A stretch of 64,000 nt of DNA from a virus: positions 1 to 64,000 of IMG/VR virus record IMGVR_UViG_3300037961_005010; one strand, given 5' to 3'. Below the pieces are notes generated by a model, which was not told the DNA's origin, searched no databases, and worked only from the letters and a program-made list of their open reading frames with translations. The translations under genes and the position numbers were made by a program. Every line of letters starts with the position of its first letter. Position 1 is the stretch's first letter. Positions 4,825 through 63,988 of this stretch are shown in pieces.

Positions 4825-4854
4825 GCTTATATAAGGAATAAAAAGGAATCTAAA

Positions 4855-41050: not shown

Positions 41051-41669
41051 AGAAGTAGATGTAATACGTTTTTGTGATGTGCTGAGAGCACAAAGATATA
41101 AATCCGATTGGGAAGATTATTGGCAAAATTTGCATGATCAAATGCATGTGAATGAATTTAAAATACAAAAGTGGTGGGCTAATAAAATAGATCTAATAGG
41201 AAAAGAAGTTTCTATTTTAAATTCTGGCGCAGGTTTTTATTCGGTTCCAATGTGTTTCGAAAAAGGAGCTACTTTAGTAAGAACTTATGATATGTGCCCT
41301 GTTACTGATGAAATAGCATGGGAAGCTAATACACATTATCAACCAAACTATATACATTATGTTGAAGACGTAGTTTTTGATAGCCGTAAACTTAAGTGGG
41401 ATTTATCTGATGTTTATATTAATACAAGCTGTGAACATTCTTATCACATGAAAGATGTAATACCTGACGGTGTTGAAGCTGTTGTAAGTAGTAATAACTT
41501 AACAAAAAGAGGACATATAAATAAAGTCAACTCTATACAAGAATTAGTCAAACAATCAGGAATTACTGAAGTAAAGTTTCATGAAGAAATGACACTTGAA
41601 TACCAAGATGAATTAGGACCTAGAGAATATAAACAATTTTTTGTTTATGGATTGAAAGGCAAAAAATGA
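41037..41669 (+). CDS. Methyltransferase-like protein (Rossmann type)
   Basis: 210 residues. VSILNSGAGFYSVPM in place of the SAM loop, TYDMCPVTDEIAWEANTHY as strand 2 and YINTSCEHSYHMKD as motif IV-like region suggest a class I methyltransferase fold, though the glycine motif is atypical. It could be inactive or act on another nucleotide-like ligand. Coupled on both sides. Confidence 0.5.
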   Translation: MYQVEEVDVIRFCDVLRAQRYKSDWEDYWQNLHDQMHVNEFKIQKWWANKIDLIGKEVSILNSGAGFYSVPMCFEKGATLVRTYDMCPVTDEIAWEANTHYQPNYIHYVEDVVFDSRKLKWDLSDVYINTSCEHSYHMKDVIPDGVEAVVSSNNLTKRGHINKVNSIQELVKQSGITEVKFHEEMTLEYQDELGPREYKQFFVYGLKGKK

Positions 41670-42559
41670 AAAAGATAATCTTTTCTATATGCATAGACAT
41701 ACCTGAAATATTGCTTGACGAAACTGGCTATTCTAGACACTCTGGTAAAAATCCTTGGAGAGTTGGTAGAGCTGAAGAAACTAAAGACAAATTTGCGGCG
41801 TTTAAAAACTATTTGATGTGGACTCAAAAAGCATATGCTGACGAGATAGATGCAGATTATAGAATGTACTCTTATGATAAAGAGTTTATAGACTATTATG
41901 TTTATTGCAAATCTGTGCATGAAAATCTACCAATGTATCATATAATAAATTATTATAAAAATCATTTATTACAAAAATTATCATATGACTATGATGCTGT
42001 GTTTTATGTAGACATTGATGTTATACCCAGAACAGATGAAGATATTTTTAAAGTTCATGACATGAATTATCTGTATGCTAAAAATAATAATGATTTAGCT
42101 GAATGGGGTAAAAAAATGGACCTCACTAAATATAACAGTTGCGATAGAAATCCAGCTATAAAATATTGGAACTGCTACGCTTTATTATTAGAAGAAGGTT
42201 ACCATCCTGAAAATGACGTGATAAACACAGGCACTGTGATAGGAGGATCTGAAGTTATTCAATCAATGGATTGGATAGGTGAGTTTGAAGGATTGATCAA
42301 AAAATTAAAAGACTTGCAAGAGCAGAAAGTAACAATGTTTCCTGAAGCTATCTTTAGTAGATTTGCTTTTGATAATGAAACTATGTTTAGTTACTTGGTC
42401 AATTCTAAAAAAATAAAATATAAAAGTTTATCAGATGAATGGCACGGTAGATTACCTGATGATGAAATAGATCCTAGCCATAAAATGATTCATGCTATAA
42501 ACAAAAAGTTTGAGCTTATATGGCCAGAGGTAGATTATCAGGGAAGAAGTTTTACATGA
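41666..42559 (+). CDS. Glycosyltransferase-like protein (297 aa)
   Basis: YDAVFYVDIDVIPRTDEDIF has the DxD motif flanked by aromatic strands as in GT-A folds. ENDVINTGTVIGGSEVIQSM resembles the acceptor-side 'N.G' loop, and FPEAIFSRFAFDNETMFSYL is a helical pocket. N-terminal KIIFSICIDIPE is a Rossmann-like strand. Related distantly to genes at 39574 and 42556. Confidence 0.55.
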   Translation: MKKIIFSICIDIPEILLDETGYSRHSGKNPWRVGRAEETKDKFAAFKNYLMWTQKAYADEIDADYRMYSYDKEFIDYYVYCKSVHENLPMYHIINYYKNHLLQKLSYDYDAVFYVDIDVIPRTDEDIFKVHDMNYLYAKNNNDLAEWGKKMDLTKYNSCDRNPAIKYWNCYALLLEEGYHPENDVINTGTVIGGSEVIQSMDWIGEFEGLIKKLKDLQEQKVTMFPEAIFSRFAFDNETMFSYLVNSKKIKYKSLSDEWHGRLPDDEIDPSHKMIHAINKKFELIWPEVDYQGRSFT

Positions 42560-43215
42560 AAATTTTCTGTTTAAGGATAGGTGATAAGTACGGTCCTGAA
42601 TATGAAGATTACATTAATAAAATGCTGGATGATTATGAAGTTGTTTGGATAAGAGAAGCAGTTAGTAAATCTATACCATTACAATGGAATAAAATACAGT
42701 TTATGAATTTAGATACCGATGATCCAATAGTTGTTTTGGACATAGATATAATCTTAAGAAAAGACTATAAAGAATTATTTGAATATCCGATTGAAAGAGG
42801 AGAGTTTCTTAGTATACCAGCTTGGTGGAATAGTAAATATCCTAAGTGGAAAATAAACGGAGGATTTCAAAAATACTATCCGAGAGATTGTAAATATATC
42901 TATGAAGCTTTTATGAAAAATCCAAAACATTGGATGATGCACTATATAAAGCAAGGACTAACAATAGGACCAGTTAACGGCGAACAGTTTTTTGTAGAAG
43001 AACATGTAAAAGATCATTTAGATTTAAAGTTAATTCCTAAGTCTTGGGTAACTAGATGGACTCCGGATGACACTATTAATAAGCACATAGAACTTAAGTG
43101 GGAAGAGTTTAATGATTCTAAATTAATAGAAGATGAAGAGTTTAATTCTGACATAAAACTTATACACTTCACTAGTTCTTTAAATAAACCTCATCTTACT
43201 TCTTTATGGAAATAA
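42556..43215 (+). CDS. Glycosyltransferase-like protein (219 aa)
   Basis: The ATG at 42556 overlaps the previous stop (ATGA); an upstream in-frame ATG at 42520 is less likely. IVVLDIDIILRKDYKELF holds the DxD motif; SIPAWWNSKYPKWKINGGF and FTSSLNKPHLTSLW follow. It ends the second island, 25 bp before a late promoter. Confidence 0.6.
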   Translation: MKIFCLRIGDKYGPEYEDYINKMLDDYEVVWIREAVSKSIPLQWNKIQFMNLDTDDPIVVLDIDIILRKDYKELFEYPIERGEFLSIPAWWNSKYPKWKINGGFQKYYPRDCKYIYEAFMKNPKHWMMHYIKQGLTIGPVNGEQFFVEEHVKDHLDLKLIPKSWVTRWTPDDTINKHIELKWEEFNDSKLIEDEEFNSDIKLIHFTSSLNKPHLTSLWK

Positions 43216-48186: not shown

Positions 48187-49695
48187 ATGACAAGTACTAT
48201 TAAGCTTAAAAAATCCAGTGTCTCTGGAAATAAGCCAGGCACAAGCGATTTAGAATATGGCGAATTAGCCATTAACTTCGCGGACGGCAAATTATTTTAT
48301 AAAAACAGCTCTAATCAAATTAGATCTTTTGTTGATTCAGGCCTCGTCCAATCTCTTTCTTTAGATAGTTCTGAAGTAATTAATCTAGTTGACTCAGCAT
48401 ATGTTCAAGCTAGACAGACAGTTTCCACATTCGATTCAGATTCAGTAACTAACTTAGTTGACTCAGCATATATTCAAGATAGGCAAATGGGTGTTGGATT
48501 TAACCTATATGAATATAATGCTACTGACAATCAAACTACATTTGAAGATTCAGATATAGCAGGAAATGTGTTATCTTATAGTCAAAATAATATTTTAGTT
48601 CACTATAATGGTGTTTTATTGTCAACGACTGAATATACAGCAACTGACGGATCTTCAGTTGTTTTAGACGATGCTGCTGATTCCGGTGCTATTATAATGA
48701 TAGCACGTTGGAAAGAAGGTGGCCAAGATAGTGCCTCTGGAAGTTCGGGCTCATATGGTGGAGGTGGATCTTCTGGTGGTAGTGGAAATGCTTGGAGTGG
48801 TGATAGAGGACTTATTGGTGGTGGTGAGACCGCAAACAATGGAACGTCAGTAAACGTAATTAATTATATTGATATTACAACTACAGGCAATGCTCAAGAC
48901 TTTGGCGATCTAACGGGTACAAGAGAATCTCTTGGAGCATTAAGTAATCAAACAAGAGGTGTATTTTGTGGTGGTAATTCCGATGGTGCGCGTTCAAATG
49001 TAATGGATTATGTAACAGTAGCGACTACAGGCAACGCTCAAGATTTCGGTGACCTTACGTCTACAAAAAACGCGGTGACAGCAAGTTCCAATGGTACAAT
49101 AGGGATAATTGCAGGTGGTCTTGGAAGTGGTAGCTACCCAAATAATTATAAAAATGAGATAGAAAGTATTACAGTTGCAACGACAGGAAACGCAACTGAT
49201 TTTGGTGACATGACTTATCAAGCTCAAATGCCAACTTCTTTTGCTGACGCAACAAGAGGTGTTATTGCAGGAGGATATAGCACAGCTGCAGCGGGCGATG
49301 TGACAATGAATTATATTACTTTTGCTTCAGCAGGCAATGCTCAAGACTTTGGAGATCTTTCTCAAGGAAGATATCGTTTAGGAAGCTGTTCCGATTCAAC
49401 TCGCGGCGTAACAGCAGGAGGTGGAACGGCTTCATCAAACGGTGTAAATACAATGGATTATGTAGCTATTCAAACAACAGGAAACGCAGTTGACTTTGGC
49501 GATCTTACACAAGAGCGACAAACAAGCGGAATGGCTAATGCTACACGTGGAGTTTTTGCAAGTGGTGATACTAATTCAACATTTTATAATGTTCTTGATT
49601 ATATAACTATTCAAACAACAGGAAACGCTGCAGATTTTGGAGACAATACTGATACATATGGCAAGACTGCTTCATGTTCTGGAAGTGCTTCATAA
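48187..49695 (+). CDS. Tail fibre with six-repeat propeller tip (class A)
   Basis: 502 residues. An Mtd_N-like start (TIKLKKSSVSGN), a stalk with two VDSAYVQAR-type units, an NGVLLSTTEYTATDGSS module, a Gly/Ser linker, then six copies of an about 45-residue repeat ending xTGNAxDFGDLT. It ends SGSAS. The exact six copies suggest a six-bladed beta-propeller, probably the receptor-binding tip (inference). First gene after the terminator; no clear own promoter is visible. Confidence 0.65.
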   Translation: MTSTIKLKKSSVSGNKPGTSDLEYGELAINFADGKLFYKNSSNQIRSFVDSGLVQSLSLDSSEVINLVDSAYVQARQTVSTFDSDSVTNLVDSAYIQDRQMGVGFNLYEYNATDNQTTFEDSDIAGNVLSYSQNNILVHYNGVLLSTTEYTATDGSSVVLDDAADSGAIIMIARWKEGGQDSASGSSGSYGGGGSSGGSGNAWSGDRGLIGGGETANNGTSVNVINYIDITTTGNAQDFGDLTGTRESLGALSNQTRGVFCGGNSDGARSNVMDYVTVATTGNAQDFGDLTSTKNAVTASSNGTIGIIAGGLGSGSYPNNYKNEIESITVATTGNATDFGDMTYQAQMPTSFADATRGVIAGGYSTAAAGDVTMNYITFASAGNAQDFGDLSQGRYRLGSCSDSTRGVTAGGGTASSNGVNTMDYVAIQTTGNAVDFGDLTQERQTSGMANATRGVFASGDTNSTFYNVLDYITIQTTGNAADFGDNTDTYGKTASCSGSAS

Positions 49696-49704
49696 GGAAA
49701 CGTA

Positions 49705-49712
49705 TATAAATA
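49705..49712 (+). promoter_or_regulatory. Late promoter TATAAATA before 49735
   Basis: Exact late box 9 bases after the stop at 49695 and 22 bp before the ATG at 49735. Probably drives the following run of fibre genes. Confidence 0.65.
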
Positions 49713-49734
49713 TAAGTAAAAGTGAGAAATAAAA

Positions 49735-50484
49735 ATGCCAAGTTCAATAAATAGACATATTGCTAATTTAGCTCCAGCGATAGATAGTGCTAGTCCTGGT
49801 GATTTCTTAGGTATACATGATAATGGCGGCGGTAATTTTCATCATCAGATAGAAGCAGTTTTTGAAGTTGCGGCTAATGGATCATCTGCTTATACGTTTA
49901 CTGGATCTGGTTTTTCTTCAGGTGTAGATAACCCTACGTTATATCTTCAAAGAGGAGTAAAGTACAGGTTTAATTTAAATCAATCTGGACACCCATTTCA
50001 AATCAGAGTATCAGATGGAGGCAGTGCTTATAGCACTGGTGTAGTAAATAATGGTCAGAGCGGACCAGGAACAGTTACGTTTATTCCTGACATGGGTGCA
50101 CCAAACTCATTAGTTTATCAGTGTACATCTCATGCTGGAATGGTCGGCGACATTATCATTTTAGATAATACTTCATTCTTAGATTCAGCTGCAGCAACAA
50201 GTTTAATTGATTCTACATATGTAGCAGCCAGAGCTGGTGGCGCAGGTGGTGGTTTGGATTCAGCTGGTGTTACTGGAATAGTTGATTCAGCATATGTTGC
50301 TGCAAGATCTAGCGGCGGCGGTGGTGGTGGATCAGGATTCGCTACTGTTAACGTAGCATCTCAAAATTTAACATCCAACATAACAATAGCTGGAAATCAG
50401 AACGGATTATCAGTCGGACCGGTAATAATAGACAGTGGAGTTACAATCACCGTTAATGATGGTGCTAGATACGTGGTAGTTTAA
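49735..50484 (+). CDS. Fibre protein with a cupredoxin-like domain
   Basis: 249 residues. Residues about 40-142 form a beta-sandwich with His86 (SGHPFQI) and Cys130, His133, Met136 (YQCTSHAGM): His plus C-x2-H-x2-M, the type 1 copper ligand set and spacing of amicyanin. After it come two VDSxYVAAR units, a Gly-rich linker and a C-terminal LTSNITIAGNQNGLSVGPV tip module common in cyanophage fibres. It shares the N-terminal adaptor with the class A fibres. Copper binding is inferred from ligands. Confidence 0.65.
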   Translation: MPSSINRHIANLAPAIDSASPGDFLGIHDNGGGNFHHQIEAVFEVAANGSSAYTFTGSGFSSGVDNPTLYLQRGVKYRFNLNQSGHPFQIRVSDGGSAYSTGVVNNGQSGPGTVTFIPDMGAPNSLVYQCTSHAGMVGDIIILDNTSFLDSAAATSLIDSTYVAARAGGAGGGLDSAGVTGIVDSAYVAARSSGGGGGGSGFATVNVASQNLTSNITIAGNQNGLSVGPVIIDSGVTITVNDGARYVVV

Positions 50485-50485
50485 A

Positions 50486-51646
50486 ATGGCTGGACCCTTA
50501 AAAAGCGACATCATTCAGGTAAACTCAGGAACTGATCCAGTAGAATTTCCTCAAGGAATTACGATCGATAACAAAGAGTTAAGCGATCCTAGTTTAGCTG
50601 TTTCAATTATAGATTCAACAGGATTTCCAGATAGCGCTGATTGGGTAAATGGCCAACTTTGGTACGATAGTGCTAACAGTCACATGAACATATACACTCC
50701 AGATGGTTGGAGAACATTTGCCGGTGGATATGCAGTTCCTAGAGATGTAGGTCCTAATAGTGGAGACAGAGCAATTGTCTTTAATGCTTCTTCTGGTACT
50801 GGTGCTAATTATGGAAATAAAATTGAGTACTTTGACATAACTTCCACAGGTAACGCAGCGTCATTTGGTATAATGACTACTGCTAATGGCCAGTCTGGGC
50901 CTCACGGTGCAATTAGTAATGGCACTTATTGTATTAATGCTGAAACAAGAGCTCCATCCACTGGTTATTATGAGCTTGAGTATGTAGTTTCAGCAACAAC
51001 AGGTAACGCTCAAGATTTTGGATCTTTAGCTAGTTTAGCTTATTCAGGAAAATCTGGAGTCAGCGATGGAGCTTCCGGATATTACACAGGAAGTAATCAA
51101 ACAACCTCACAAATAGAAACACTTAACCTTGCAACTCAAAGTGATGCATCACTTGATTCATACACATCAGTTAGAAAACAAAACGGAGCTGCTTGGGCAA
51201 CTATAACTGGAGCGAGAGGAATATGGGCAGGTGGAACCAGCTCTACTACTTACTCCAATGAAATGTTTTACTTAGCATTACCAATTGTGGCTAACTCTAC
51301 AGACCGTGGTGATTTGACAGTTGGAAGAAACTACCCTGTAGCAGGTGGAAATGACGACTATATGGTTATAGGAGGGGGGTGGACTGGTTCTGCCAGTAAT
51401 GTCATAGATTACACAACAATGGGAACTTCAGGAAACGCAGTTGACTTTGGCGACTTAACTGTTTCAAGATACGCTGGTTGTTCTACTAACACGACAAGAT
51501 CATGTTTTATGGGTGGTTATAACGGTTCAACTAGAGTTAACACTATAGACTATATAACTATAGCTACTCCGGGAAATGCTTATGACTTTGGAGATATGAC
51601 GGATGGTGGAAATCATGCTAGAGGTACTTCAGGAGCTGCGTCATGA
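50486..51646 (+). CDS. Tail fibre with six-repeat propeller tip (class B)
   Basis: 386 residues. A short N terminus, an ADWVNGQLWYDSANSHMNIY, TPDGWRTF module that looks like a small beta domain, then six repeats, the second and third degenerate (for example ATQSDASLDSYTSVRKQ), the last ATPGNAYDFGDMT. Ends SGAAS. Only one base separates it from the cupredoxin-like fibre. Confidence 0.6.
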   Translation: MAGPLKSDIIQVNSGTDPVEFPQGITIDNKELSDPSLAVSIIDSTGFPDSADWVNGQLWYDSANSHMNIYTPDGWRTFAGGYAVPRDVGPNSGDRAIVFNASSGTGANYGNKIEYFDITSTGNAASFGIMTTANGQSGPHGAISNGTYCINAETRAPSTGYYELEYVVSATTGNAQDFGSLASLAYSGKSGVSDGASGYYTGSNQTTSQIETLNLATQSDASLDSYTSVRKQNGAAWATITGARGIWAGGTSSTTYSNEMFYLALPIVANSTDRGDLTVGRNYPVAGGNDDYMVIGGGWTGSASNVIDYTTMGTSGNAVDFGDLTVSRYAGCSTNTTRSCFMGGYNGSTRVNTIDYITIATPGNAYDFGDMTDGGNHARGTSGAAS

Positions 51647-52845
51647 GTCAAGTTAGAGTAGAAAGAATAGTTTCACTGAACGACTCTGCTGCGCCGGATT
51701 TTCCTACTGGCTTTACCGTTACAGGACAAACTTTAGATGAGAAATATCCAAAAAACATATTTGTAAAAGGTGTCGTAGATTCATCTGGTACTCCTGAAGA
51801 TAGTAGTAGCGGGCTTTATTGGTGGAACGCAGATCATGATAGTGGAAAAGGTCTCCTTGCAGTTAATGTGAAGGGAAGTTGGATAGGTGTAACTAAATAT
51901 GTAGAACCTCCAGTTCCTACTCCAGGTTGGTTAGGAAATAGAGCTCACTTAGCAGGTGGAGCTTTTCCAAATGATAGTACTATACAATACTATGACATTA
52001 CTACACCAGGAAACTCTACAGACTTCGGAGACTTAACATCTAATTTTTGGGGTAAAGGTACAGCATCAAGTGGTACAACAATTGTAAGCGCAGGTGGAAA
52101 TAGATATGATGGAAGTTATACTACTGGAAATCAAATCGACACTTGGACTTCTGCTACTCCGGGAAATGCAACTGATTTTGGTGACTTAAGTCAAGGTAGA
52201 CAAGACGTCGCTGCTACAGGCGATGGAACCTATGGTATTTGGGGCGGAGGCAGAACTGGTAACTCTAGCACTACTTATGTAAATACTATAGACTATGTGA
52301 CAATAGCTTCCGCCGGAAACGCAGCAGATTGGGGAGATTTAACAATTTCAAGATGGGGTTTATCAGCAGGAGGAGATGCAACTCGAGGACTTTACATAGG
52401 TGGTAAGTATCCGTACGATTATGGTGGTTCCTCTCCAGATCCTCAACAATCTAATGTAGTAGATTATATTACATACGCAACAGCTGGAAACGCAGTTGAC
52501 TTTGGAGATATGTTAGAGGCACATGAGTTAGCTCAAAACGGAATGGTTACGTCTGCAACGAGATCTCTAAGAGGCGGAGGAGAAAACACATCAACTAGTT
52601 CTATAGAGTACTATACAACTGCAACAACCGGTAATGGTACTGACTTTGGAGATTTAACTGCTAATAGATATCATTTAGCAGGAGCAAGCAACGGAACTTA
52701 CGGAACATTTGCAGCAGGAACAACTGGAAGCTATTCAAATGTAATAGAATATGTAACAATAGCAACTACAGGAAATGCTATAGATTTCGGTGACACCTAT
52801 GCTGCTAAATACGCGCTTTCAGGCGCAGCGGGGAATGCATCATGA
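51643..52845 (+). CDS. Tail fibre with six-repeat propeller tip (class B)
   Basis: 400 residues. Class B module with LYWWNADHDSGKGLL, then six clear repeats from TTPGNSTDFGDLT to ATTGNAIDFGDT. Ends AGNAS. Overlaps neighbours as ATGA on both sides, so the three genes 50486, 51643 and 52842 are translationally coupled. Confidence 0.65.
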   Translation: MSQVRVERIVSLNDSAAPDFPTGFTVTGQTLDEKYPKNIFVKGVVDSSGTPEDSSSGLYWWNADHDSGKGLLAVNVKGSWIGVTKYVEPPVPTPGWLGNRAHLAGGAFPNDSTIQYYDITTPGNSTDFGDLTSNFWGKGTASSGTTIVSAGGNRYDGSYTTGNQIDTWTSATPGNATDFGDLSQGRQDVAATGDGTYGIWGGGRTGNSSTTYVNTIDYVTIASAGNAADWGDLTISRWGLSAGGDATRGLYIGGKYPYDYGGSSPDPQQSNVVDYITYATAGNAVDFGDMLEAHELAQNGMVTSATRSLRGGGENTSTSSIEYYTTATTGNGTDFGDLTANRYHLAGASNGTYGTFAAGTTGSYSNVIEYVTIATTGNAIDFGDTYAAKYALSGAAGNAS

Positions 52846-53837
52846 GTAAATTAAAAGTAGATAAAATATTCGGATCAAATAGCACAACAAAGCCTAATTT
52901 TCCACATAGTCTTGTTGATGGTTCATCTAAATTAGGAGGCGGCAGTTTTGTTGCCGATACGAATGCAAATTTTCCACTTTCAGCCGAATCAGGTGGAACT
53001 AGCCTGGCTGGTGATTTCTTTTATGATACAACCTTTAACAATCTTTTTATGTACATAAACGACTCTATTGGCTATGAGAACATAAGTCTTACAGATTCTG
53101 CAGACGCCGCAGCCGGGCCTGGTTTGATTTATGTAGGTAAGGAGCAGTGGACTACGACTAATGGTAATACAGGAACTTTTACTTTTTCTAATTTGGATGA
53201 GGCAAACGGAACTAACTATACAGTACAAGCAGGAGACTTGATAGTTTTAGTTTTTGGTAGAGGTAATACATCTGGATACTACATTAGTAACACACCTTCA
53301 GACGAACTTGGTAACTTCACATTTCTATCCGGTGCTAAAATGGGAGGAAGTGATTCTTATGATCATGATCACGCTATATTCTACAGATACGTTACTGCTA
53401 GTGACATTTCAACTGGATCTGTAAGTCATCATCCTGATAACTACGGCACTCCTTCCTATCAAGCGTGCGCTTTTCACTTTTTAGTTTTTAGAGGTGTAAC
53501 TGGAATTGATAATGGAAAAGGCACCCAATATAACAATAATTCTCGTTATCAAAATACTAATTATAATCAGACAACTCTCGATGCCGCGGGTCAATTTATC
53601 ATTTTTTCAGCTGCTAATGGTTGGTACAGCAGTAGTGGAGTTCACACTACAGCTAGTTCAAATTATGAAACTGATCCTGGCCAAATTTCAAATTATGTTA
53701 ACGACACTGATGATATTAACATGCAGACTTGGATCTATAAATCGACTGCGGCTGAAACTTGGGGCAATCCTAGCTTTTCATCACCTTCAACCACATCATC
53801 ATCTGATTCAACACTAGTTTCATGCAGGGTGTACTAA
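52842..53837 (+). CDS. Fibre protein without propeller (331 aa)
   Basis: The N terminus (KLKVDKIFGSNSTTKPNFPH) and an FFYDTTFNNLFMYINDSIGY module match class B fibres, but the C-terminal 230 residues are a different beta domain (VQAGDLIVLVFGRGNTSGYY, ACAFHFLVFRGVTG, AGQFIIFSAANGW). Several Tyr/His-rich loops could bind sugars. A tip-domain swap on a shared base is the likely explanation. Confidence 0.6.
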   Translation: MSKLKVDKIFGSNSTTKPNFPHSLVDGSSKLGGGSFVADTNANFPLSAESGGTSLAGDFFYDTTFNNLFMYINDSIGYENISLTDSADAAAGPGLIYVGKEQWTTTNGNTGTFTFSNLDEANGTNYTVQAGDLIVLVFGRGNTSGYYISNTPSDELGNFTFLSGAKMGGSDSYDHDHAIFYRYVTASDISTGSVSHHPDNYGTPSYQACAFHFLVFRGVTGIDNGKGTQYNNNSRYQNTNYNQTTLDAAGQFIIFSAANGWYSSSGVHTTASSNYETDPGQISNYVNDTDDINMQTWIYKSTAAETWGNPSFSSPSTTSSSDSTLVSCRVY

Positions 53838-53838
53838 T

Positions 53839-55023
53839 ATGTCAACATTAAAAACAAATAAAATATCTGGAGTAGTTTTAACGACAACCGAAGCTCCGTT
53901 TGATGTTCAGATTGGGCCCAACTCTTTACCTCGAGCTTTTACAATAAATTTTACAGTAGATAGTACAGGTGCTCTACCTGATTCTGCTGGAGCAGGTGGC
54001 ACTGCTGAAATAGGACACTGGTTTTATGATTCTACAGGTGATTCTACTAATGACATTTTAAAGTTTTATGTCAATGATTCTATTGGCTGGGTTAACTTAG
54101 GTTTGACAGATTCTGCTGTGACAGCTGCCACCCCGGCCTCTTGGATGGGTGATAGAGCTCTTTTTCAACAAAGTACGAATCCTGCCAATCACGTAGACTA
54201 CTTGTCTATAGATACTCTAGGTAATGGAGCAGACTTTGGTGATGATTATTTAAACAGGAATTCATGTGCTGGAACATCAAATGGATCTAGAGGATTATTT
54301 TTTGGTGGAAACTCTAGTGGTTATTATACAAAAATAACATATTATACGATTGCTGTAGCAAGTAACTATACAGATTTTGGAAGTATGAACGCTCCGGGCT
54401 CACGATACGGGGATGCTGTAGGAGATGGTACATACGCAGTTGCAAGCAACGGTTACAGCACAAGCCATGCTGCTATGGATTATGTAACAGTAGCTACTAC
54501 AGGAAATGGAACGGACTTTGGAGATTTAACTGTACCTGGCACACAGTTAGCCGCTGCAAATGATGCGACCCGTGGTCTTTTTATGGGAAGATACTACGGT
54601 AGTACTCAACAAAGTGTTATCGACTATATAACAATTGCAACCCCTGGGAATGCTGTTGATTTTGGCGATCTTGCTACTCCAAGAACTCGATTAGCTATGG
54701 GGATTGGTGATGAAACATATGGTATATATGCTGGAGGTTATAACGGAAGCGCCCGTGAAGAAGACATAGACTATGTTACTATACAAACTCTTGGAAACAT
54801 GACAGCTTTTGGTAACTTAACTTCAATTAGAAGCCAATCGGGAACGGCTAACAGTCCAACAGTTGGAGGTACAGGCCGAGGCTTGTTTGCTGGAGGTTAC
54901 ACCACAACTCAAGTATCGTCTATAGATTATATAACAACTTCTTCTACAGGAAATGGTGCTGACTTCGGCGATCTAACTTATTCACTGAGTAATATAGCTG
55001 GTTGTGCTGGATCTAGTAGTTGA
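53839..55023 (+). CDS. Tail fibre with six-repeat propeller tip (class B)
   Basis: 394 residues. Class B base (HWFYDSTGDSTNDILKFYV, NDSIGWVNLGL), then six repeats: DTLGNGADFGDD, AVASNYTDFGSM, ATTGNGTDFGDLT, ATPGNAVDFGDLA, QTLGNMTAFGNLT, SSTGNGADFGDLT. Ends GSSS. Shares NDSxGW with 52842 and 55038. Confidence 0.65.
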   Translation: MSTLKTNKISGVVLTTTEAPFDVQIGPNSLPRAFTINFTVDSTGALPDSAGAGGTAEIGHWFYDSTGDSTNDILKFYVNDSIGWVNLGLTDSAVTAATPASWMGDRALFQQSTNPANHVDYLSIDTLGNGADFGDDYLNRNSCAGTSNGSRGLFFGGNSSGYYTKITYYTIAVASNYTDFGSMNAPGSRYGDAVGDGTYAVASNGYSTSHAAMDYVTVATTGNGTDFGDLTVPGTQLAAANDATRGLFMGRYYGSTQQSVIDYITIATPGNAVDFGDLATPRTRLAMGIGDETYGIYAGGYNGSAREEDIDYVTIQTLGNMTAFGNLTSIRSQSGTANSPTVGGTGRGLFAGGYTTTQVSSIDYITTSSTGNGADFGDLTYSLSNIAGCAGSSS

Positions 55024-55037
55024 ATTAGGAGTTAAAA

Positions 55038-56285
55038 ATGTCAACACTTAAAACCTCTAAATTATCTGGCATAGTAGACGCTAAGCTTGGGATTAAAGTA
55101 AACAATAGAAACTTAAAGGCTAACTTTCATGTAGATAGTTCTAGTGGTGCACCTTTGTCAGTAGACTCAGGAGGTAATGCTCAACCAGGAGACTATTTTT
55201 GGGATTCAGATAACAGTTCTTTAAAGGTTTACGTAAACGATAGTTATGGGTGGACTAATATTGGTTTGACAGATTCTTCAGGAGCAGGACCTTCAAACGC
55301 AGACACTGCATTTATATTAGGTGGAATCTATTACTTTTCATCTGGATCTGGAAATTGGAATGTGCCAGACAACAATATTGAACAGATTAATTTTGAAACT
55401 TTAGGAAACGCTACAGACTTTGCTGATTTTACTATTACAGGTACGACGGACCCTTACGGATATCCACGAAAAGGTGTTGCTGAAATAGTAGCTGGTGGCG
55501 ATCATAATAGAATTGTAATGGGCGCAGCTAGCGTTACAAATGTTAGTCATCAGACTGGTGACTTTGAAACTGGCATTGGCATACATTATATAACGTGTGC
55601 AACTGCAGCCAATTCAACTCAGTTTGGTAATTTACAATCAGCGTCATATCACAATGAAATGGGCGGTGATGGTGGAAATGGAGTTATGCACTTTAGAAAT
55701 ACTGGTAGTCAATCCTTTACTACTTTGCAACAAGTTACAATTCAAACAACTGGAGATGCTACTGACTTCATAGATTTACAAATGACAAATATGTCATATG
55801 GTGGAGTAAGCACAAACGATACTAGAGGCATTGCCTTTGGAGGTAGACGAAGCAATTATTACGAGTCTCACATAGATTATTTTACTCCTGGAAATGCATC
55901 AGTAGCAGCTGCTGACTTCGGTGATCTTATAACAGGTAATAATAAACCAGCAGTAACAAACGACAATTTAAATAGAACAGTTTATGCTGATATGTACCAA
56001 GGGACGCTTAGCTCAACATCTGGCTCAGTATCAAATACTATAAGCTATATTGACACTGCTACTCCGAGCAACGCTGCAGATTTTGGCGACTTAACAGTAT
56101 CACAGCAAGGTATGGGTGCTTCAGCCAGTAATACTAGAGCTGTATTTTTTGGAGGATCAATAAACACCGGAGTCAATGCTGATACTACTATATGCTACGT
56201 AACAATAGCTACGCCAGGTAACGCATCTGATTTTGGCGATTGCTCACCTAGAAGAGAAACGACTGGTTCTGAAGGAATAGGCTAA
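55038..56285 (+). CDS. Tail fibre with six-repeat propeller tip (class B, EGIG subtype)
   Basis: 415 residues. Class B base (GDYFWDSDNSSLKVYVNDSY), then six repeats of which the fourth is FTPGNASVAAADFGDL. VAEIVAGGDHNRIVMG and GIHYITCAT are shared with the gene at 62735, and both end SEGIG. Closest paralogue of 62735 although 7.7 kb away. Confidence 0.65.
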   Translation: MSTLKTSKLSGIVDAKLGIKVNNRNLKANFHVDSSSGAPLSVDSGGNAQPGDYFWDSDNSSLKVYVNDSYGWTNIGLTDSSGAGPSNADTAFILGGIYYFSSGSGNWNVPDNNIEQINFETLGNATDFADFTITGTTDPYGYPRKGVAEIVAGGDHNRIVMGAASVTNVSHQTGDFETGIGIHYITCATAANSTQFGNLQSASYHNEMGGDGGNGVMHFRNTGSQSFTTLQQVTIQTTGDATDFIDLQMTNMSYGGVSTNDTRGIAFGGRRSNYYESHIDYFTPGNASVAAADFGDLITGNNKPAVTNDNLNRTVYADMYQGTLSSTSGSVSNTISYIDTATPSNAADFGDLTVSQQGMGASASNTRAVFFGGSINTGVNADTTICYVTIATPGNASDFGDCSPRRETTGSEGIG

Positions 56286-56315
56286 AAATTTAATTTTATT
56301 CTTTCATCATAACAA

Positions 56316-56332
56316 TATAAATACTATAAATA
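56316..56332 (+). promoter_or_regulatory. Tandem late promoters TATAAATA
   Basis: Two exact late boxes, 56316-56323 and 56325-56332, one base apart, 22-38 bp before the ATG at 56355. Only site in the window with two adjacent exact boxes. Confidence 0.7.
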
Positions 56333-56354
56333 AGAGAGAAGTTAGGAATAGAAA

Positions 56355-57974
56355 ATGGTGACAAACAGAAAGCTCGCTGACTTAGGTTCTGCAGTAGACA
56401 GCGCGGCTACTGGTAATTTTCTCACAGTTGATGATTCTGGAGGTAAGTTCAGATCGATAGCATACTCAGAGATAGCTAGTAGACCAACTGTTTTAGATTC
56501 AGCTGCAGCTCAAGCTATAATAGACTCATCTTATATTCAAGCGAGACAGACAGACGTAGGGCTAGATTCGAGTCAAATTACGAGTTTAGTCGACTCTTCA
56601 TACATCACTGCTAGACAATCTACAACAGGCTTAGATTCAGCCGGTGCACTTAATCTAGTAGACTCTGCATATCTCTCAGCAAGATCAACAACAGGTTTAG
56701 ACTCATCAAAAGTAACTAATTTAATAGACTCAGATTATATATCTGGAAAAGCTGCAGTAAATTCAGGTTTTAAAACTTTTACATATTTTGCTTCAGATGG
56801 GCAAACAGACTTTTCAGGATCTGATTATAACGGTGAGGTTTTGTCTTACACCGCAGATGGTATTATAGTCTGGCTTAATGGCGTGCAGATACTTGATACT
56901 GATGACTACACAGCTTCTAATGGAACAAGCGTTGCTTTAACGGCCGGTGCTGATTCAGGAGCAAGTTTAGTTGTAGGCAGCTGGGCGCTAGGAGGAAGTG
57001 GCAGTAGCGGTGGAGTTTTTTATGGAGACAGGGCTTTTATAGGTGATGGTACATCAGGTACTCCTGCTGATGGACAAGTAGATTACTTTGATATAACAAC
57101 TACATCAAACGCTGCTGACTTTGGAGATTTCCAAACCACCAGTACAAACACTATTAATCATTCATGTTCTGTAAGTAATGCTACAAATATAGTTTTTTAT
57201 GAGCAATCAACTAACGCAGGTAGTTCTAATGACTACCAAACAATATCAGTAATAACATGTGCAACTGTAGGGAACGCATCAGACTTCGGTGATCAGTATC
57301 ATTATAGGTATGGCTCTGGTGGTGCATCAAATGGTGTGACTGGAATGTTTGCAGGTGGTTGGGGTCGACCAGGATCAAACAGTGGAGCGACAGCTGCCCC
57401 ATTAGATGAGATTGATTATGTGACAATAGCCACGGCCGGAAACGCTACAGATTGGGGAAGTACTCTTTCATCTGGAAGATACGGAATGACTAATGCCGGA
57501 ATAAGCAATGCAGATAAAGCCGTATATGTAGGAGGTGCTATTGGCGCTCCATCTTATGCAGCTCAAAATACAATAGAAACTTTTACATGGACTGTCGGAT
57601 CAAGTGCTACAGATTTTGGAGATTTAACATCAGGAACTTTAGATCACGCATGTGCTCAAAGCACTACGAGAGGATTAATTGCTGGTGGTACATCTGGCAC
57701 TCTTAGTAACGCATATAATACTATAGAATACATAACAATAGCTTCTCCAGGAAATGCTACAGATTTTGGTGATTTGACTACAAACAAATCTAGAAATGCT
57801 GGGTGTAGTAACACGACTAGAGCAGTGTTTGGAGGAGGTTTTTCAGCTTCTCCTATAAATGAAGTAAACGTAATCGAGTATGTAACAATTGCAACTACAG
57901 GCAATGCTCAAGATTTTGGAGATTTGACTACAGTAAAAGACCGCTGTTTCGCTGATACTGGAAATGCGTCATAG
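56355..57974 (+). CDS. Tail fibre with six-repeat propeller tip (class A)
   Basis: 539 residues. N-terminal adaptor RKLADLGSAVDSAATGNFLT, then a stalk of about four DSxYIxAR units, the NGVQILDTDDYTASNGTS module (T7-fibre-like), and six repeats from TTTSNAADFGDF to ATTGNAQDFGDLT. Ends GNAS. Driven by the tandem late boxes. Confidence 0.65.
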   Translation: MVTNRKLADLGSAVDSAATGNFLTVDDSGGKFRSIAYSEIASRPTVLDSAAAQAIIDSSYIQARQTDVGLDSSQITSLVDSSYITARQSTTGLDSAGALNLVDSAYLSARSTTGLDSSKVTNLIDSDYISGKAAVNSGFKTFTYFASDGQTDFSGSDYNGEVLSYTADGIIVWLNGVQILDTDDYTASNGTSVALTAGADSGASLVVGSWALGGSGSSGGVFYGDRAFIGDGTSGTPADGQVDYFDITTTSNAADFGDFQTTSTNTINHSCSVSNATNIVFYEQSTNAGSSNDYQTISVITCATVGNASDFGDQYHYRYGSGGASNGVTGMFAGGWGRPGSNSGATAAPLDEIDYVTIATAGNATDWGSTLSSGRYGMTNAGISNADKAVYVGGAIGAPSYAAQNTIETFTWTVGSSATDFGDLTSGTLDHACAQSTTRGLIAGGTSGTLSNAYNTIEYITIASPGNATDFGDLTTNKSRNAGCSNTTRAVFGGGFSASPINEVNVIEYVTIATTGNAQDFGDLTTVKDRCFADTGNAS

Positions 57975-57996
57975 TAAAGTTTAAAGGAAAGTAATA

Positions 57997-59553
57997 ATGG
58001 GTTTAAGTAGAAAATTAGCTGATCTAGGTAAATTCATAGATTCTGCCGCCACGAGTGACTTCTTAACGGTTGACGATTCAGGCGGTAAGTTTAGAGATGT
58101 TTTATGGACAGAGATAGCTGGAAAACCAACTACTCTAGACTCTGCGGCTGCACAAGCGATTGTGGACTCGGCATATGTCCAGGCCAGACAAGTTGACGTA
58201 GGCCTAGACTCAGCATTAGTAACATCATTAGTAGACTCATCTTACGTTCAAGCAAGGCAGGGCGACGTAGGCCTAGACTCAGCAGGAATAACTGGAATTG
58301 TAGACTCAGCATATGTAAATGCTAGAATAACTTCTGGTCTCGATTCAGCTGGAACGATAAGCTTGGTAGACTCTACTTATGTAGATGCAAGAACAACTGC
58401 TAACTCAGGATTTAAGAACTATAGGTACACAGCAACAGCTGGTCAAACCGCGTTTACTAACTCAGATGAAAATGGTAGTGTGTTATCTTATTCTGGCGAC
58501 GCCTTACTTGTTTTTTATAACGGTGTTGTTCTGGAACCTACGGTTGACTATAGTACTTCAGGAAGTAACACTGTAACTTTGACAGAAGGTGCAGATTCTG
58601 GAGTTTCTGTGAACGTTGCAACGTGGACAATTCAATCAAGCGGCGGTAGTACCTCTTTTTGGGGTGGAGATAGGGGACTTCTTGGTGGAGGAGATACTGG
58701 AGGCTCGCCAGGAACTAATGTTATTGATTATTGGGATATTACATCATCAGGAAATGCTACTGACTTTGGTGATTTAGTTAGCTCAAAGCACAGTATGTCA
58801 GATGGTACTGGTAATACTACTCGAGGAGTATTTTGTGGAGGTTATGTCGGTTCAACGTTTACAACTGTAGATGAGATTGATTATGTAACTGTTTCAACAA
58901 CAGGCAACGCTCAAGATTTTGGCAATTTAACTACTGGATCATATGTAGGAGCTACAGCAGGTAATGGAACTTATGGTGTAACTGCTATAGGTTATGATAA
59001 TGGAGCTACTGTTGTAAATACTTTAGATTACTTTACGATTGCCACCACAGGAAACGCATCAGACTTTGGTGATTTAACAACAGCTAGATACGCAACGGCA
59101 GGAGCTGAAAACGGTACTTATTCGTTATACATGGGTGGACAGTCACCGATAACTAATGTCGTTGACTATATAACCGTAGCTTCTCCAGGAAATGCTACTG
59201 ACTTTGGTGATCTGACTCAAAGCCTTCGTGGTGGGGCGGCTTGTGCTGATGCTACTCGAGCGGTTGTTGGCGGTGGATTTGACAGTTCTCCAGGAAGAAC
59301 TAACGTGATGGAGTATTTTACTGTTGACACCCCAAGTAACGGCACAGATTTTGGCGATTTGACAAACTCTATCAATAGCTCCCATGCTTGCTCTAACACT
59401 ACTTATGGCACATGGGCTGGAGGTAGCGATAATTCTGGTTCGGTTAATGTTATTCAAATTGTGACTATTCAAACAGCAGGGAATGCTACTGATCACGGGG
59501 ATCTAACATCATCACGGAACGGCGGGGCAGCATGTTCAGGCGCCGCTTCATAA
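57997..59553 (+). CDS. Tail fibre with six-repeat propeller tip (class A)
   Basis: 518 residues. Same order as its upstream neighbour; the stalk contains two nearly identical copies of a 23-codon unit (DNA repeated at 58195 and 58264). NGVVLEPTVDYSTSGSNT replaces the usual DYTAS module, then six repeats up to QTAGNATDHGDLT. Ends GAAS. Confidence 0.65.
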   Translation: MGLSRKLADLGKFIDSAATSDFLTVDDSGGKFRDVLWTEIAGKPTTLDSAAAQAIVDSAYVQARQVDVGLDSALVTSLVDSSYVQARQGDVGLDSAGITGIVDSAYVNARITSGLDSAGTISLVDSTYVDARTTANSGFKNYRYTATAGQTAFTNSDENGSVLSYSGDALLVFYNGVVLEPTVDYSTSGSNTVTLTEGADSGVSVNVATWTIQSSGGSTSFWGGDRGLLGGGDTGGSPGTNVIDYWDITSSGNATDFGDLVSSKHSMSDGTGNTTRGVFCGGYVGSTFTTVDEIDYVTVSTTGNAQDFGNLTTGSYVGATAGNGTYGVTAIGYDNGATVVNTLDYFTIATTGNASDFGDLTTARYATAGAENGTYSLYMGGQSPITNVVDYITVASPGNATDFGDLTQSLRGGAACADATRAVVGGGFDSSPGRTNVMEYFTVDTPSNGTDFGDLTNSINSSHACSNTTYGTWAGGSDNSGSVNVIQIVTIQTAGNATDHGDLTSSRNGGAACSGAAS

Positions 59554-59565
59554 GGAAATAAAAAA

Positions 59566-61122
59566 ATGGCTTTTAGTAGAAGTAGAAAATTAGGTAACTT
59601 AGGTAAGTCGATAGATAGCTCGGCACTAAGCGATTTCTTAACGGTTGACGACTCAGGTGGTAAGTTTCGCGATGTACAATATTCCGAAATAACTGGAAAG
59701 CCTACTCTACTAGACTCTTCAACTCTTTCATCTCTCGTAGATTCATCTTATATTCAATTAAGACAAACTGATGTTGGAATTGATTCCGGTCAAATTACTA
59801 ATTTAGTTGACTCATCTTACGTTCAAGCAAGACAAGGTGCTGGTGGTTTAGACTCAGCTAAAACTACTAACTTAATTGACTCATCTTACGTAGCTGCAAG
59901 AATAACAGCTGGATTAGACTCATCTTCTACAATAAACTTAGTAGATTCAGATTATGTAGGAGCTAGAACATCTGCTAATTCTGGTTTTACATACTACAAG
60001 TATACATCAACAGCAGGACAAACTGCTTATACTGGTGCTGATGATAATGGAGAAACATTATCTTACAGTACATCTACTGACAATATATTAGTTTTTTATA
60101 ACGGCATTTTGCTCATACCAACAGATGATTATACAACTTCTGGTGGAGACACTGTAACTCTTACTACTGCAGCAGATTCTGGTTCTCCAGTGACAATAGG
60201 AAGATGGGCTGTTGCTGCTCCGGCCGGTAACTTTATATCTTGGGGTGGAGCTCGAGCTTTGACTTTTATGCAAGGACAAACTAACGGTGACGCGATAAAT
60301 TATTTTGCTATGGCAACACCAGGAAATGCTTCAACTTTTGGTACTACATCAGGTGTTTCAAACGATGGCGGTAGTGCAGTTTCTGACGCAACATATGCAG
60401 TGTTTGCCGGTCACACTAATAGTACATCATATGACGATGTTCAATATGTAACAGTATCTACACTAGGCAATACTTCTACTGGAATGGTTATAGATCCTTA
60501 TGATGACATGGGATCAGCTTCTGATGGTACTAATGCTTTTTATTTTGGTGGATATAGAACAAATCCTTGGTTAAACAAAATTCAAAAGTTTTCTATATCT
60601 ACATTTTCAGGAACGGCATCAGATTTTGGTGATCTAGTAGAAGGTTTACTAGGCCTATGTGGTTTTGGAAATACTGATAGAATCATAGCAGCTGGTGGCA
60701 GCGCATATGCAAACTTGTATAGAAACACTATACAATACTGGAACCCTTCATCATCCACAAACGCATCAGACTTTGGCGATTTAAATTTTAGTACACACAG
60801 TCTTGGTGGATGTAGCGATTTAACGAGAGGTGTAGTGGGAGGAGGTTATAATGGATCTTCATATGAAAATAGCTTAGATTATGTTACTATAGCGTCTACA
60901 GGTAATGCTACAGATTTTGGAGATTTAAACTATTCAAGATCAGGAACAAAATCTGCTGGAACTGATGGTGTATACGGCGTATTTGCTGGAGGTTATAACG
61001 GCAGTGCTAGAGATGACGGAATAAATAGAATTACCATTCAAACAACCGGAAACTCCACAGACTTTGGTAATTTAACTGAAGGTGGTTCAACGGCTTCTAC
61101 AACAGCAGGTAATGCTTCATAA
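59566..61122 (+). CDS. Tail fibre with six-repeat propeller tip (class A, degenerate first repeats)
   Basis: 518 residues. Adaptor SRKLGNLGKSIDSSALSDFL, stalk of DSSYxxAR units, NGILLIPTDDYTTSGGDT, then six repeats. The first two have lost the DFGDLT core (ATPGNASTFGTT, STLGNTSTGMV), the last four are typical. Ends AGNAS. Confidence 0.6.
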   Translation: MAFSRSRKLGNLGKSIDSSALSDFLTVDDSGGKFRDVQYSEITGKPTLLDSSTLSSLVDSSYIQLRQTDVGIDSGQITNLVDSSYVQARQGAGGLDSAKTTNLIDSSYVAARITAGLDSSSTINLVDSDYVGARTSANSGFTYYKYTSTAGQTAYTGADDNGETLSYSTSTDNILVFYNGILLIPTDDYTTSGGDTVTLTTAADSGSPVTIGRWAVAAPAGNFISWGGARALTFMQGQTNGDAINYFAMATPGNASTFGTTSGVSNDGGSAVSDATYAVFAGHTNSTSYDDVQYVTVSTLGNTSTGMVIDPYDDMGSASDGTNAFYFGGYRTNPWLNKIQKFSISTFSGTASDFGDLVEGLLGLCGFGNTDRIIAAGGSAYANLYRNTIQYWNPSSSTNASDFGDLNFSTHSLGGCSDLTRGVVGGGYNGSSYENSLDYVTIASTGNATDFGDLNYSRSGTKSAGTDGVYGVFAGGYNGSARDDGINRITIQTTGNSTDFGNLTEGGSTASTTAGNAS

Positions 61123-61133
61123 GGGAATCATAA

Positions 61134-62711
61134 ATGCCAAACTATAGTAATAGAAGACTTGCAAACCTAGCTAATGCAGTTGACAGCGCTACTTCCGGAA
61201 ACTTTTTAACAGTAGATGATTCATCTCAAGGTAAGTTCTTATCTCCTGTGTGGAGTACACATATAACCAATGTGCCTAGTGGTCTTTTAGATTCTTCTTT
61301 AGCTCAAGGATTATTTGATTCTGCATATATTCAAGCTAGACAAACTGACGTAGGTCTAGACTCAGCATTAGTAACATCACTTATAGACACAACATATGTT
61401 CAAGCCAGAGCTGGAGGCGCTGGTTTAGATTCTGCAGCGGCAATTGCTCTTATAGACTCTGCGTATGTTGCTGCAAGATTAACATCAGGATTAGATTCTG
61501 CTGGAATTTCATCTATTATAGATTCAGACTACGCTGCAGCGAGAGTATCAGCCGGATCTGGATTTCAAATGTATGAGTACAAGGCAACTGCTGGACAAAC
61601 AGTATTTGACTCTACTGATGATAACGGAGAAACATTAGCATATGATGCAAATGGAATACTTGTATTTCTCAATGGTGTTTTATTACTAGACACGTTTGAC
61701 TACACCGCGTCAAATGGAACAAGTGTTACACTAACAGATAGTTCTGACTCAGGTGCTAATTTACAAATTATAAAATACGGTATTGCTACTAGTGGAGGTG
61801 GAACTAGTGCTTTATATTATGGTGATCGTGGACTTAGATTTGGTGGTTATGACACAGGCGTTGATCATTCAAATGTAATAGATTACTGGAACATAGCCTC
61901 CTCTACAGGAAACGCTGTAGACTTCGGCGATCTAACTCGAAAAAGAAGTTATATTGCTTCTTGTTCTAATGCATCTAGAGCTCTTTCATTTGGTGGTCAA
62001 TCATCTTCCCCCTTTGCTAGCGGATCAGATATAATAGATTATGTTACAATAGCCTCTACCGGCAATGCCACGGATTTTGGTGACATGCTTTCCGCGAGAA
62101 ACCGAGCAGCATGTGAAAGCAATGGAACAAGAGCTATTCATGGAGGTGGCACTGACGGAAGCAGTAATGTTAATACCATAGAGTATGCCACAATAGCAAC
62201 CACAGGAAACACTATTGACTTTGGTGATTTATCAGTAGCTAGAGAGCGTCTTTCGGCAGCATCTAACGGGTCGAGAATAGTTTTTATCGGTGGTCAGGCA
62301 GGCGGTTATTCCAACACTATGGATTATGTTACTGGCGATACTACAGGAAATGCGCAAGACTTTGGCGACCTTCTAACTCCTCTTAGTAACCACGGAGCTA
62401 CAGGAACAGGATCTGGAGATCGAGCTATAGTGTTTGGTGGCCTGGCCAGTGGTAGCTATCACAATGTTATTCAATATTTTCCTGTTTCAACAACAGGAAA
62501 CTCGTCAGATTTCGGAGACCTATTAGGAAATCACGCCTATGCTTCCGCTTGTTGTAATTCAACCAAAGCTCAGTTTGTTGGGGGTTACAATCCTGGTGAT
62601 ATAGACATAATACAACAAGTAACAATGGCTACTCTAGGAAACGCAACAGATTATGGAGATTTAACTGAAGCGGTGTATAGTTCTGGTGCAACTTCAGGAA
62701 ATGCGTCATAG
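61134..62711 (+). CDS. Tail fibre with six-repeat propeller tip (class A)
   Basis: 525 residues. Adaptor NRRLANLANAVDSATSGNFL, stalk units including DVGLDSALVTSLID, NGVLLLDTFDYTASNGTS, then six well-formed repeats from SSTGNAVDFGDLT to ATLGNATDYGDLT. Ends SGNAS. Its DNA at 61347-61379 matches 58195 with one mismatch. Confidence 0.65.
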   Translation: MPNYSNRRLANLANAVDSATSGNFLTVDDSSQGKFLSPVWSTHITNVPSGLLDSSLAQGLFDSAYIQARQTDVGLDSALVTSLIDTTYVQARAGGAGLDSAAAIALIDSAYVAARLTSGLDSAGISSIIDSDYAAARVSAGSGFQMYEYKATAGQTVFDSTDDNGETLAYDANGILVFLNGVLLLDTFDYTASNGTSVTLTDSSDSGANLQIIKYGIATSGGGTSALYYGDRGLRFGGYDTGVDHSNVIDYWNIASSTGNAVDFGDLTRKRSYIASCSNASRALSFGGQSSSPFASGSDIIDYVTIASTGNATDFGDMLSARNRAACESNGTRAIHGGGTDGSSNVNTIEYATIATTGNTIDFGDLSVARERLSAASNGSRIVFIGGQAGGYSNTMDYVTGDTTGNAQDFGDLLTPLSNHGATGTGSGDRAIVFGGLASGSYHNVIQYFPVSTTGNSSDFGDLLGNHAYASACCNSTKAQFVGGYNPGDIDIIQQVTMATLGNATDYGDLTEAVYSSGATSGNAS

Positions 62712-62734
62712 TAAAGCTTAAAGGAAAGTAATAA

Positions 62735-63988
62735 ATGAGTCAATACAGTGAAATAAGAGTTAACACTATAACAGATTCAACTGGATCTGTCGCTGTCGAT
62801 TTTGAAAATGGACTTACTATAGGAGGAAAGGCACTAGACGATTCAGGCGGAGCTATTCAATTAAATAAAATAATAGATTCAGCTGACGCGCCTTCAGATT
62901 CTGCTTCTTATTATGGCTTAATGTGGTACGACAGCGCTAACACTAGATTGAATATATACACTCCAATTGGTTGGAGAACAATAAGAGGTGATCAGGCTCC
63001 TAGCGGTGGTGGAGGTAGTTCGAACGCAACTCATGCTTTTGCTCTTGGTGGAACATACTACAACGGAAACTATTACGTTACCGCTGCAAATCACATTGAA
63101 ACATTAACAATAGCAACTACTGGTAACGCAACTGATTTTGGTGACATAACTGCTTCTGGTTCTATCGCACTAGGTATTTCAGAAATAGCAGCAGGAGGAG
63201 ATCATAGCAGAATCGTACTAGGTTCGGCGTTAGTAGATAACGGATATGGTAACGCAGGAGATCTTGCTAATGGTACCGGAATACATTACATAACTTGTGC
63301 GACCCCAGGTAATACTGTAGACTTTGGCGATCTTCCATCAGATTATTTTAATGAAAACGGAGGCGATGCTGGGGCTGGTTACATGCACTTTAGGTCCAAT
63401 GGATCTGGTAGCAGCACTAGTATTGTTACAGTTACAATTCAAACTACTGGAAACGCATCTGATCTAATAGATTTAAGTGGTGCGGAGGGATATTCATTTG
63501 GCGGTGTAAGTTCTAATGATACAAGAGCGCTTGCTTTTGGTGGAAGATATGGTAACGCTTTTGGTGTTGCAGTTGATTATTTCACTCCAGGAAATTCGTC
63601 AGTAGCAGCTGCTGACTTTGGTGATCTCTTGTTGGGTTCTAATAAACCAGCAGTAACAAACGACAATGTAAACAGAACAATTTATCACGAATCATATAAT
63701 GGCTCTGGATTTTCCTGGGGAAGTTTATCAAATACTTTAGCCTATCTTGACACAGCGACTTTAGGAAACGCAGTGGATTTTGGTGATTTATCATCGGCTA
63801 GACAAGGAGGAGGAGCTTCGGCCAATAACACTAGAGCTCTGTTTTTTGGTGGAGAATCAAATAGTTCAAGCGATAGCTATGCACACAATACGGTTGATTA
63901 CGTGACAGTAGCTACTCCAGGAAACGCTACAGACTTCGGTGATGTTTCAAGAAGAAGACAAACATGCGGTTCTGAGGGAATAGGTTAA
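62735..63988 (+). CDS. Tail fibre with six-repeat propeller tip (class B, EGIG subtype)
   Basis: 417 residues. Class B base (LMWYDSANTRLNIYTPIGW), then six repeats, the fourth FTPGNSSVAAADFGDL. ISEIAAGGDHSRIVLG and GIHYITCAT match 55038, and the end SEGIG is the same. Last complete gene of the window; whether the array continues is not visible. Confidence 0.65.
   Translation: MSQYSEIRVNTITDSTGSVAVDFENGLTIGGKALDDSGGAIQLNKIIDSADAPSDSASYYGLMWYDSANTRLNIYTPIGWRTIRGDQAPSGGGGSSNATHAFALGGTYYNGNYYVTAANHIETLTIATTGNATDFGDITASGSIALGISEIAAGGDHSRIVLGSALVDNGYGNAGDLANGTGIHYITCATPGNTVDFGDLPSDYFNENGGDAGAGYMHFRSNGSGSSTSIVTVTIQTTGNASDLIDLSGAEGYSFGGVSSNDTRALAFGGRYGNAFGVAVDYFTPGNSSVAAADFGDLLLGSNKPAVTNDNVNRTIYHESYNGSGFSWGSLSNTLAYLDTATLGNAVDFGDLSSARQGGGASANNTRALFFGGESNSSSDSYAHNTVDYVTVATPGNATDFGDVSRRRQTCGSEGIG

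Follow-up and report, generated by a model that had tools for sequence, protein, structure and literature searches.

The window, i.e. the whole stretch of 64,000 nucleotides analysed here, contains a run of fibre-type genes from position 48187 onwards, which are referred to below by their start positions. A first-pass annotation had described ten of them as members of one repeat family, and all ten open reading frames (ORFs) are present at the starts given there. It had also put the length of the array at about 15.8 kb; the repeat genes do reach 63988, but two more continue past the window end to 66912. The complete record is 121,083 bases long and holds these additional six-repeat genes at 64000-65241 and 65254-66912, which gives twelve propeller genes within 18.7 kb, as detected using an iterated repeat HMM. 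When all the proteins of the locus were scanned with this HMM, the array was found to consist of the twelve propeller genes and two interspersed fibres, 49735 and 52842; both have zero repeats, in line with their earlier description as non-propeller fibres.

48187..49695, plus strand: propeller gene 1; shortened class I anchor/shaft (residues 1-200) and predicted six-bladed head (residues 201-502, DNA 48787-49692); six repeats, AF2 model
49735..50484, plus strand: interspersed non-propeller fibre; N-terminus and shaft units similar to class I, contains a cupredoxin-like segment (H...CTSHAGM), no repeats
50486..51646, plus strand: propeller gene 2; class II anchor (~87 aa) and head (DNA 50747-51643), blade 3 degenerate
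51643..52845, plus strand: propeller gene 3; class II anchor and head (repeat HMM)
52842..53837, plus strand: interspersed non-propeller fibre; class II anchor (matches 53839/55038) and an unrelated C-terminal domain, no repeats
53839..55023, plus strand: propeller gene 4; class II anchor and head (repeat HMM)
55038..56285, plus strand: propeller gene 5; class II anchor and head (repeat HMM)
56355..57974, plus strand: propeller gene 6; class I anchor/shaft (~218 aa) and head (repeat HMM, anchor matches)
57997..59553, plus strand: propeller gene 7; class I anchor/shaft and head (repeat HMM, anchor matches)
59566..61122, plus strand: propeller gene 8; class I anchor/shaft and head (repeat HMM, anchor matches)
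61134..62711, plus strand: propeller gene 9; class I anchor/shaft and head (DNA 61809-62708; repeat HMM)
62735..63988, plus strand: propeller gene 10; class II anchor and head (repeat HMM)
64000-65241, outside the window: further propeller gene; class II anchor, six repeats, repeat 4 partial
65254-66912, outside the window: further propeller gene; class I anchor, six repeats

A second, independent contig (L100/G001) is collinear with the record; over 60,873 bases there are 22 mismatches, and two of them lie inside the array. Thus, the array is neither a chance result nor an assembly accident. The differences are too few for this contig to inform on population variation.

The major capsid protein is of the gp23 type and matches those of Phage C48C1, Melnitz and HTVC008M at 66.6%, 61.6% and 59.5%, respectively, and the genome is that of a T4-like (gp23) marine phage. 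The array lies between the baseplate genes and gp13-gp15, and at the matching locus before gp13/14/15, C48C1 and HTVC008M carry tail fibres or other large genes. Genes neighbouring the array match phrog_697, which is named 'structural protein'.

The comparison of the N-termini showed that the heads are carried by two unrelated anchor classes. Class I is found in 48187, 56355, 57997, 59566, 61134, 65254 and partly 49735, and class II in 50486, 51643, 53839, 55038, 62735 and 64000, plus the non-propeller fibre 52842. Residues 117-210 of class I match pelagiphage and roseophage tail fibres with E-values down to 2e-8, and the class I shaft repeats recur in long fibre proteins, two of which were confirmed to end in a Peptidase_S74 chaperone. 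The class II anchor was not identified elsewhere in the comparison with known fibres. The anchor of 49735 matches those of 56355, 57997 and 61134, and this protein matches phrog_677, a baseplate wedge tail fiber connector (E 5e-31). Its cupredoxin-like segment, HPFQI...CTSHAGM, contains possible type 1 copper ligands; no sequence match between this segment and solved structures was found.

Repeat number and predicted fold of the heads

The repeat profile was seeded with strict GNAxDFGD matches and iterated to 71 repeats, and the resulting 49-position HMM was applied using hmmsearch --max. All ten named ORFs have six repeats per gene, as had been counted before; the weakest is repeat 3 of 50486, which is degenerate (i-E 0.06), and outside the window repeat 4 of 64000 is partial. 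The order of the elements, a GG strand, an I-D-Y-x-T strand and then GNAxDFGDLT, is the one originally described, and the repeat length of about 45 residues was corrected to about 46-56. A kelch-type propeller should have 5-7 tandem repeats of about 44-56 residues in each domain, and the 49-position repeat with six copies in all 12 genes fits this.

If the ring is closed, whole rings and not single repeats should be gained and lost, and multiples of six are expected. In a set of 244 ORFs, all unique and complete and taken from viral and MAG contigs other than this one, 230 have exactly 6, 12 or 18 repeats (198, 30 and 2 ORFs, respectively); those with 12 or 18 repeats consist of rings in tandem. 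Among the 14 ORFs that deviate are three genes split by a frameshift and several others with a gap the size of one blade. The first-pass annotation had named a repeat count that varies on careful alignment as a finding that would refute a ring; the count is instead steady, in multiples of six, across hundreds of relatives. Array sizes in these relatives are lower bounds, with loci of at most about 21 kb. The blades inside one protein are 35.1% identical, compared with 34.5-37.0% between proteins; recent blade amplification inside the genes was rejected, as blades of the same protein are no more alike than those of different proteins.

Several single cases were observed among the relatives. Single chains with 17-18 repeats (L069 9926, L057 8570 and L050 8264) correspond to three tandem six-bladed rings. 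Propeller genes split by a frameshift occur in the arrays of L040 (4+3 repeats), L073 (4+2) and L116 (4+2), which could be due to sequencing error or to the decay of unused heads. The same propeller genes are also carried by the GTDB MAG contigs L092-L098, which were binned to bacteria and an archaeon and are probably viral contigs in these bins.

The structure of the 48187 head was predicted as a single chain using AF2 with 143 relatives, which gave a closed ring of six blades and 24 strands at a pLDDT of 96.9 and a pTM of 0.94; it is the sole head modelled confidently. The strand order is B-C-D, then A-B-C-D five times, then a final A. The model starts at strand B and its last strand (295-299) is strand A, which indicates that the C-terminal strand completes blade 1. 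A lone C-terminal strand A was detected by the repeat HMM in 11 of the 12 propeller genes. The ring of the BTB-kelch domain is likewise closed by a C-terminal strand in blade 1 (PMC4019986). When only the ten paralogs were used, AF2 gave a pLDDT of 58 and a TM-score of about 0.2 to the kelch matches, which was not counted toward closure; given the poor outcome of this shallow run, the fold assignment depends on the deep alignment.

Kelch, NHL and YWTD propellers had been put forward as candidate folds, and the fold search settled the type as kelch rather than either of the other two. Foldseek against the PDB returned the six-bladed kelch domains of KLHL12, KEAP1 and KLHL3 and the designed SAKe6 at TM-scores of 0.83-0.86 and identities of 9-16%. 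Against viral models, the matches were uncultured phage proteins, S-SKS1, BcepSaruman, CBB and Pseudomonas jumbo-phage virion proteins, including a phage protein named galactose oxidase. The AF2 ring, the kelch fold matches and the multiples-of-six counts bear out the six-bladed closed ring that had been proposed, and the view that the heads are closed six-bladed kelch-type beta-propellers is supported, although they are predicted and not solved.

The heads share with the BTB-kelch domains and SAKe6 the six four-stranded blades, the GG in strand B and the C-terminal strand in blade 1. The GG is present in 75-92% and the Tyr in 82-86% of the repeats; however, the position of the kelch Trp is taken in 88-97% by the Phe of GNAxDFGDLT, which lies farther away. 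The family shows the kelch fold together with most features of the motif; it differs by Phe for Trp, a longer CD turn and an identity of 9-16%, and its heads are fused to phage anchors instead of BTB domains. The Pfam kelch models miss them: the gathering cut-off was not reached (best PF24681, 29.6 bits vs 50), the match of 61134 to PF24681 (E 5e-7) being under the cut-off, and only 1 of the 143 relatives was matched at E 0.001. Profile searches of PDB sequences with two alignments (A1, and A2 with the 143 relatives) returned nothing, and a single-sequence search gave one kelch match (E 2e-6). The repeat family was not found by tblastn with single natural heads against phage records, for which low-complexity filtering is a possible cause; the family consensus searched against 50,697 phage records gave S-SKS1 as the sole match.

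Loop variability and exchange of heads

The variability of the repeats was calculated as the entropy of each region. In the window repeats, the values are 3.10 bits for the BC loops and 3.23 bits for the DA loops, vs 1.45 bits for the CD turns and 1.12 bits for strand D; the corresponding values in the relatives are 3.31, 2.92, 1.30 and 0.89 bits. By the geometry of the four-stranded blade, the BC and DA loops share one face, and therefore the variation gathers on one face of the ring; GNAxDFGDLT is the conserved structural part. A diversity-generating retroelement was considered and rejected, as no reverse transcriptase was found in the record.

The mean identity between heads is 35.7% within an anchor class and 34.9% between classes, i.e. 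head relatedness ignores the anchor class. Within the array, 55038 and 62735 share 59% identity in the head and 23% in the anchor. In the contigs L149/L151, whose backbone DNA downstream of the array is 76% identical, one gene matches 61134 at 98% identity in the head and at 53% in the anchor; its DNA identity rises abruptly where anchor and head meet, at about 61,816, and drops past the stop codon. In contig L155, the 48187 head recurs at 84% identity on a class I anchor that is 40% identical, and the 50486 head, which is borne by class II here, recurs at 71% identity on a class I anchor (anchor identity 26%). The edges of the corresponding BLASTN matches, 48783-49699 and 50754-51634, are near the head boundaries at 48787-49692 and 50747-51643. 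In L012, an apparent class II anchor is followed by a head with 74% identity to the 61134 head, and the reverse case was observed in L151, where a 57997-like anchor (76%) bears an unrelated head (40%). Metagenomic chimeras are unlikely for the cases at 71-84% identity because these heads are diverged and lie inside arrays. Within the reach of such comparisons, which are of sequences alone, these cases demonstrate that heads move between anchors and between phages as whole cassettes, which is new here; no report of such a propeller array or propeller exchange was found in the literature searched, which was mostly open-access.

Interpretation of the array and comparison with known systems

It is likely that the locus is a cassette array of modular receptor-binding propeller tips on tail-fibre-type anchors, where both the location in the virion and the binding of receptors are inferred. 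This reading starts from what was computed, namely the repeat count, the predicted fold and its closure, the anchor classes, the locus, the loop variability and the head exchange. The N-terminal anchor, either class I with its shaft repeats or the short class II, would dock the protein to the virion, and each protein would end in one closed six-bladed kelch-type propeller with its last strand completing blade 1. The ring would be built by the strands and GNAxDFGDLT turns, which are conserved, and the ligand surface may be formed by the BC and DA loops, which are variable and lie on one face. Duplication, together with recombination where anchor and head meet, could generate diversity, and the shift of whole propellers between anchors and between phages would change the surface ligand that is gripped. 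The oligomeric state, including any trimerisation, is also an inference; no trimerisation domain was shown, which was counted against this reading, and it would be unusual for a fibre to carry a monomeric propeller.

The propellers could also be decorations or sticking adhesins on the capsid or tail, which bind abundant environmental or mucus-like glycans and raise the encounter rate without deciding the host range. Such a role would be compatible with one fold in many copies with variable loops, with the carbohydrate-like ligands common for propellers, with the unknown virion site of the class II anchor and with the phrog_697 matches next to the array. Since the array lies in the gp9-12/fibre locus adjoining gp13 and the class I anchor is akin to annotated tail fibres, we regard it as unlikely, while leaving it some weight. 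An enzymatic role, in which the heads cleave or oxidise polysaccharide as sialidase and galactose-oxidase propellers do and clear host surface polymers, is suggested by the virus-library match named galactose oxidase and by the K1F endosialidase tailspike, an enzymatic phage propeller (PMC12632334). However, outside the structural core there is no conserved pattern of catalytic residues: the positions that are conserved, Gly, Asn, Asp, Phe, Thr and Tyr, sit in the strands and turns of all blades, and variability is highest on the BC/DA face, which leaves this role improbable.

Kelch domains elsewhere are mostly intracellular protein binders, and the kelch proteins of poxviruses are intracellular. 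The genes might encode kelch-type scaffolds that act inside the cell during infection, e.g. against host defence, and are not virion parts. We consider this highly improbable for genes that lie in a late structural cluster, share fibre anchors and shaft repeats, and lack BTB or another effector domain; moreover, mass spectrometry detected a kelch protein of jumbo phage CBB in mature virions (PMC5259590). An open solenoid or linear fibre made of the repeats was also considered, as linear phage fibres commonly contain tandem repeats. Such a structure is already contradicted by the multiples-of-six counts, the lone final strand A, the closed AF2 ring and the kelch fold matches; it was rejected on the multiples-of-six rule and the AF2 model and retains practically no credibility.

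The proposal that the array is a multi-receptor system is plausible but not shown; its only basis is the locus, the anchors, the loop variability and the head swapping, without virion, binding or host-range evidence. A standing repertoire can be suggested only tentatively, and we hold it to be possible but rather doubtful: virions would show several six-bladed heads at once on two docking sites, a simultaneous display that is purely inferred, phages differing by ~24% in backbone DNA would trade heads across anchors, and the host range would evolve by shuffling from a shared marine pool. In T-even phages, gp37/gp38 have a conserved virion-proximal part and a distal tip exchanged by recombination. 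In the array, by contrast, it is an entire globular propeller that is exchanged, and twelve paralogous genes carry one at the same time.

Propellers are already known as phage receptor-binding domains in a few single proteins, and the precedents are the propeller RBP of Staphylococcus phage phi11 (PMC4901313) and the virion kelch proteins of CBB (PMC5259590). The phi11 protein, Gp45, is similarly a host-recognition protein with a propeller domain, but it has a five-bladed platform, its ring is closed by an N-terminal strand and its ligand is the wall teichoic acid of Gram-positive hosts. Several kelch propellers per phage are also found in CBB (CBB_550, 552 and 554, of which CBB_552 is in the virion) and in phiKZ-like phages; these sets, however, comprise few genes, in which neither the GNAxDFGDLT type nor the anchor classes occur and no exchange of heads has been shown. 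Literature searches for kelch arrays in marine phages gave only passing mentions (P-HM2, CBB and long-read metagenomics), P-HM2 having a kelch gene (PMC3037559). Matches for DT57C and HFTV1 were rejected, as 'kelch' is an author name there. Synechococcus phage S-SKS1 has kelch-like tandem repeats YGYFGGG...NTIDRIDFSNETTSA in SWZG_00001, 00289, 00291 and an unannotated stretch, but at about 32% identity, with another turn motif and with annotated pieces not in sixes. In this cultured cyanophage (L141, L142), the diverged repeats lie at both ends of the record and are hypothetical or unannotated.

The family is an unrecognised kelch-type subfamily that is common in uncultivated marine phages and has one diverged form among the 50,697 deposited phage records. 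Its arrays contain as many as twelve paralogous heads. The head travels as a defined cassette, which provides a testable model for how ocean phages could vary host recognition. The repeat profile can give an annotation to many 'hypothetical' genes, the 6/12/18 rule is a sequence-only test for ring closure, and the heads offer a natural collection of putative six-fold ring binders with variable loops.

Elsewhere in the window, runs of small ORFs at 1-5000 and 38346-43215 flank the baseplate genes, the second being close to the fibre locus; inspected only by eye, these ORFs are presumed to resemble methyltransferases, glycosyltransferases and a PP-loop ATPase. At 6627-7749, what we take by eye to be a radical SAM type ORF (CNAGCPQCHR) is followed by an adjacent cysteine-rich partner, and similar pairs recur at record positions 106117-108304.
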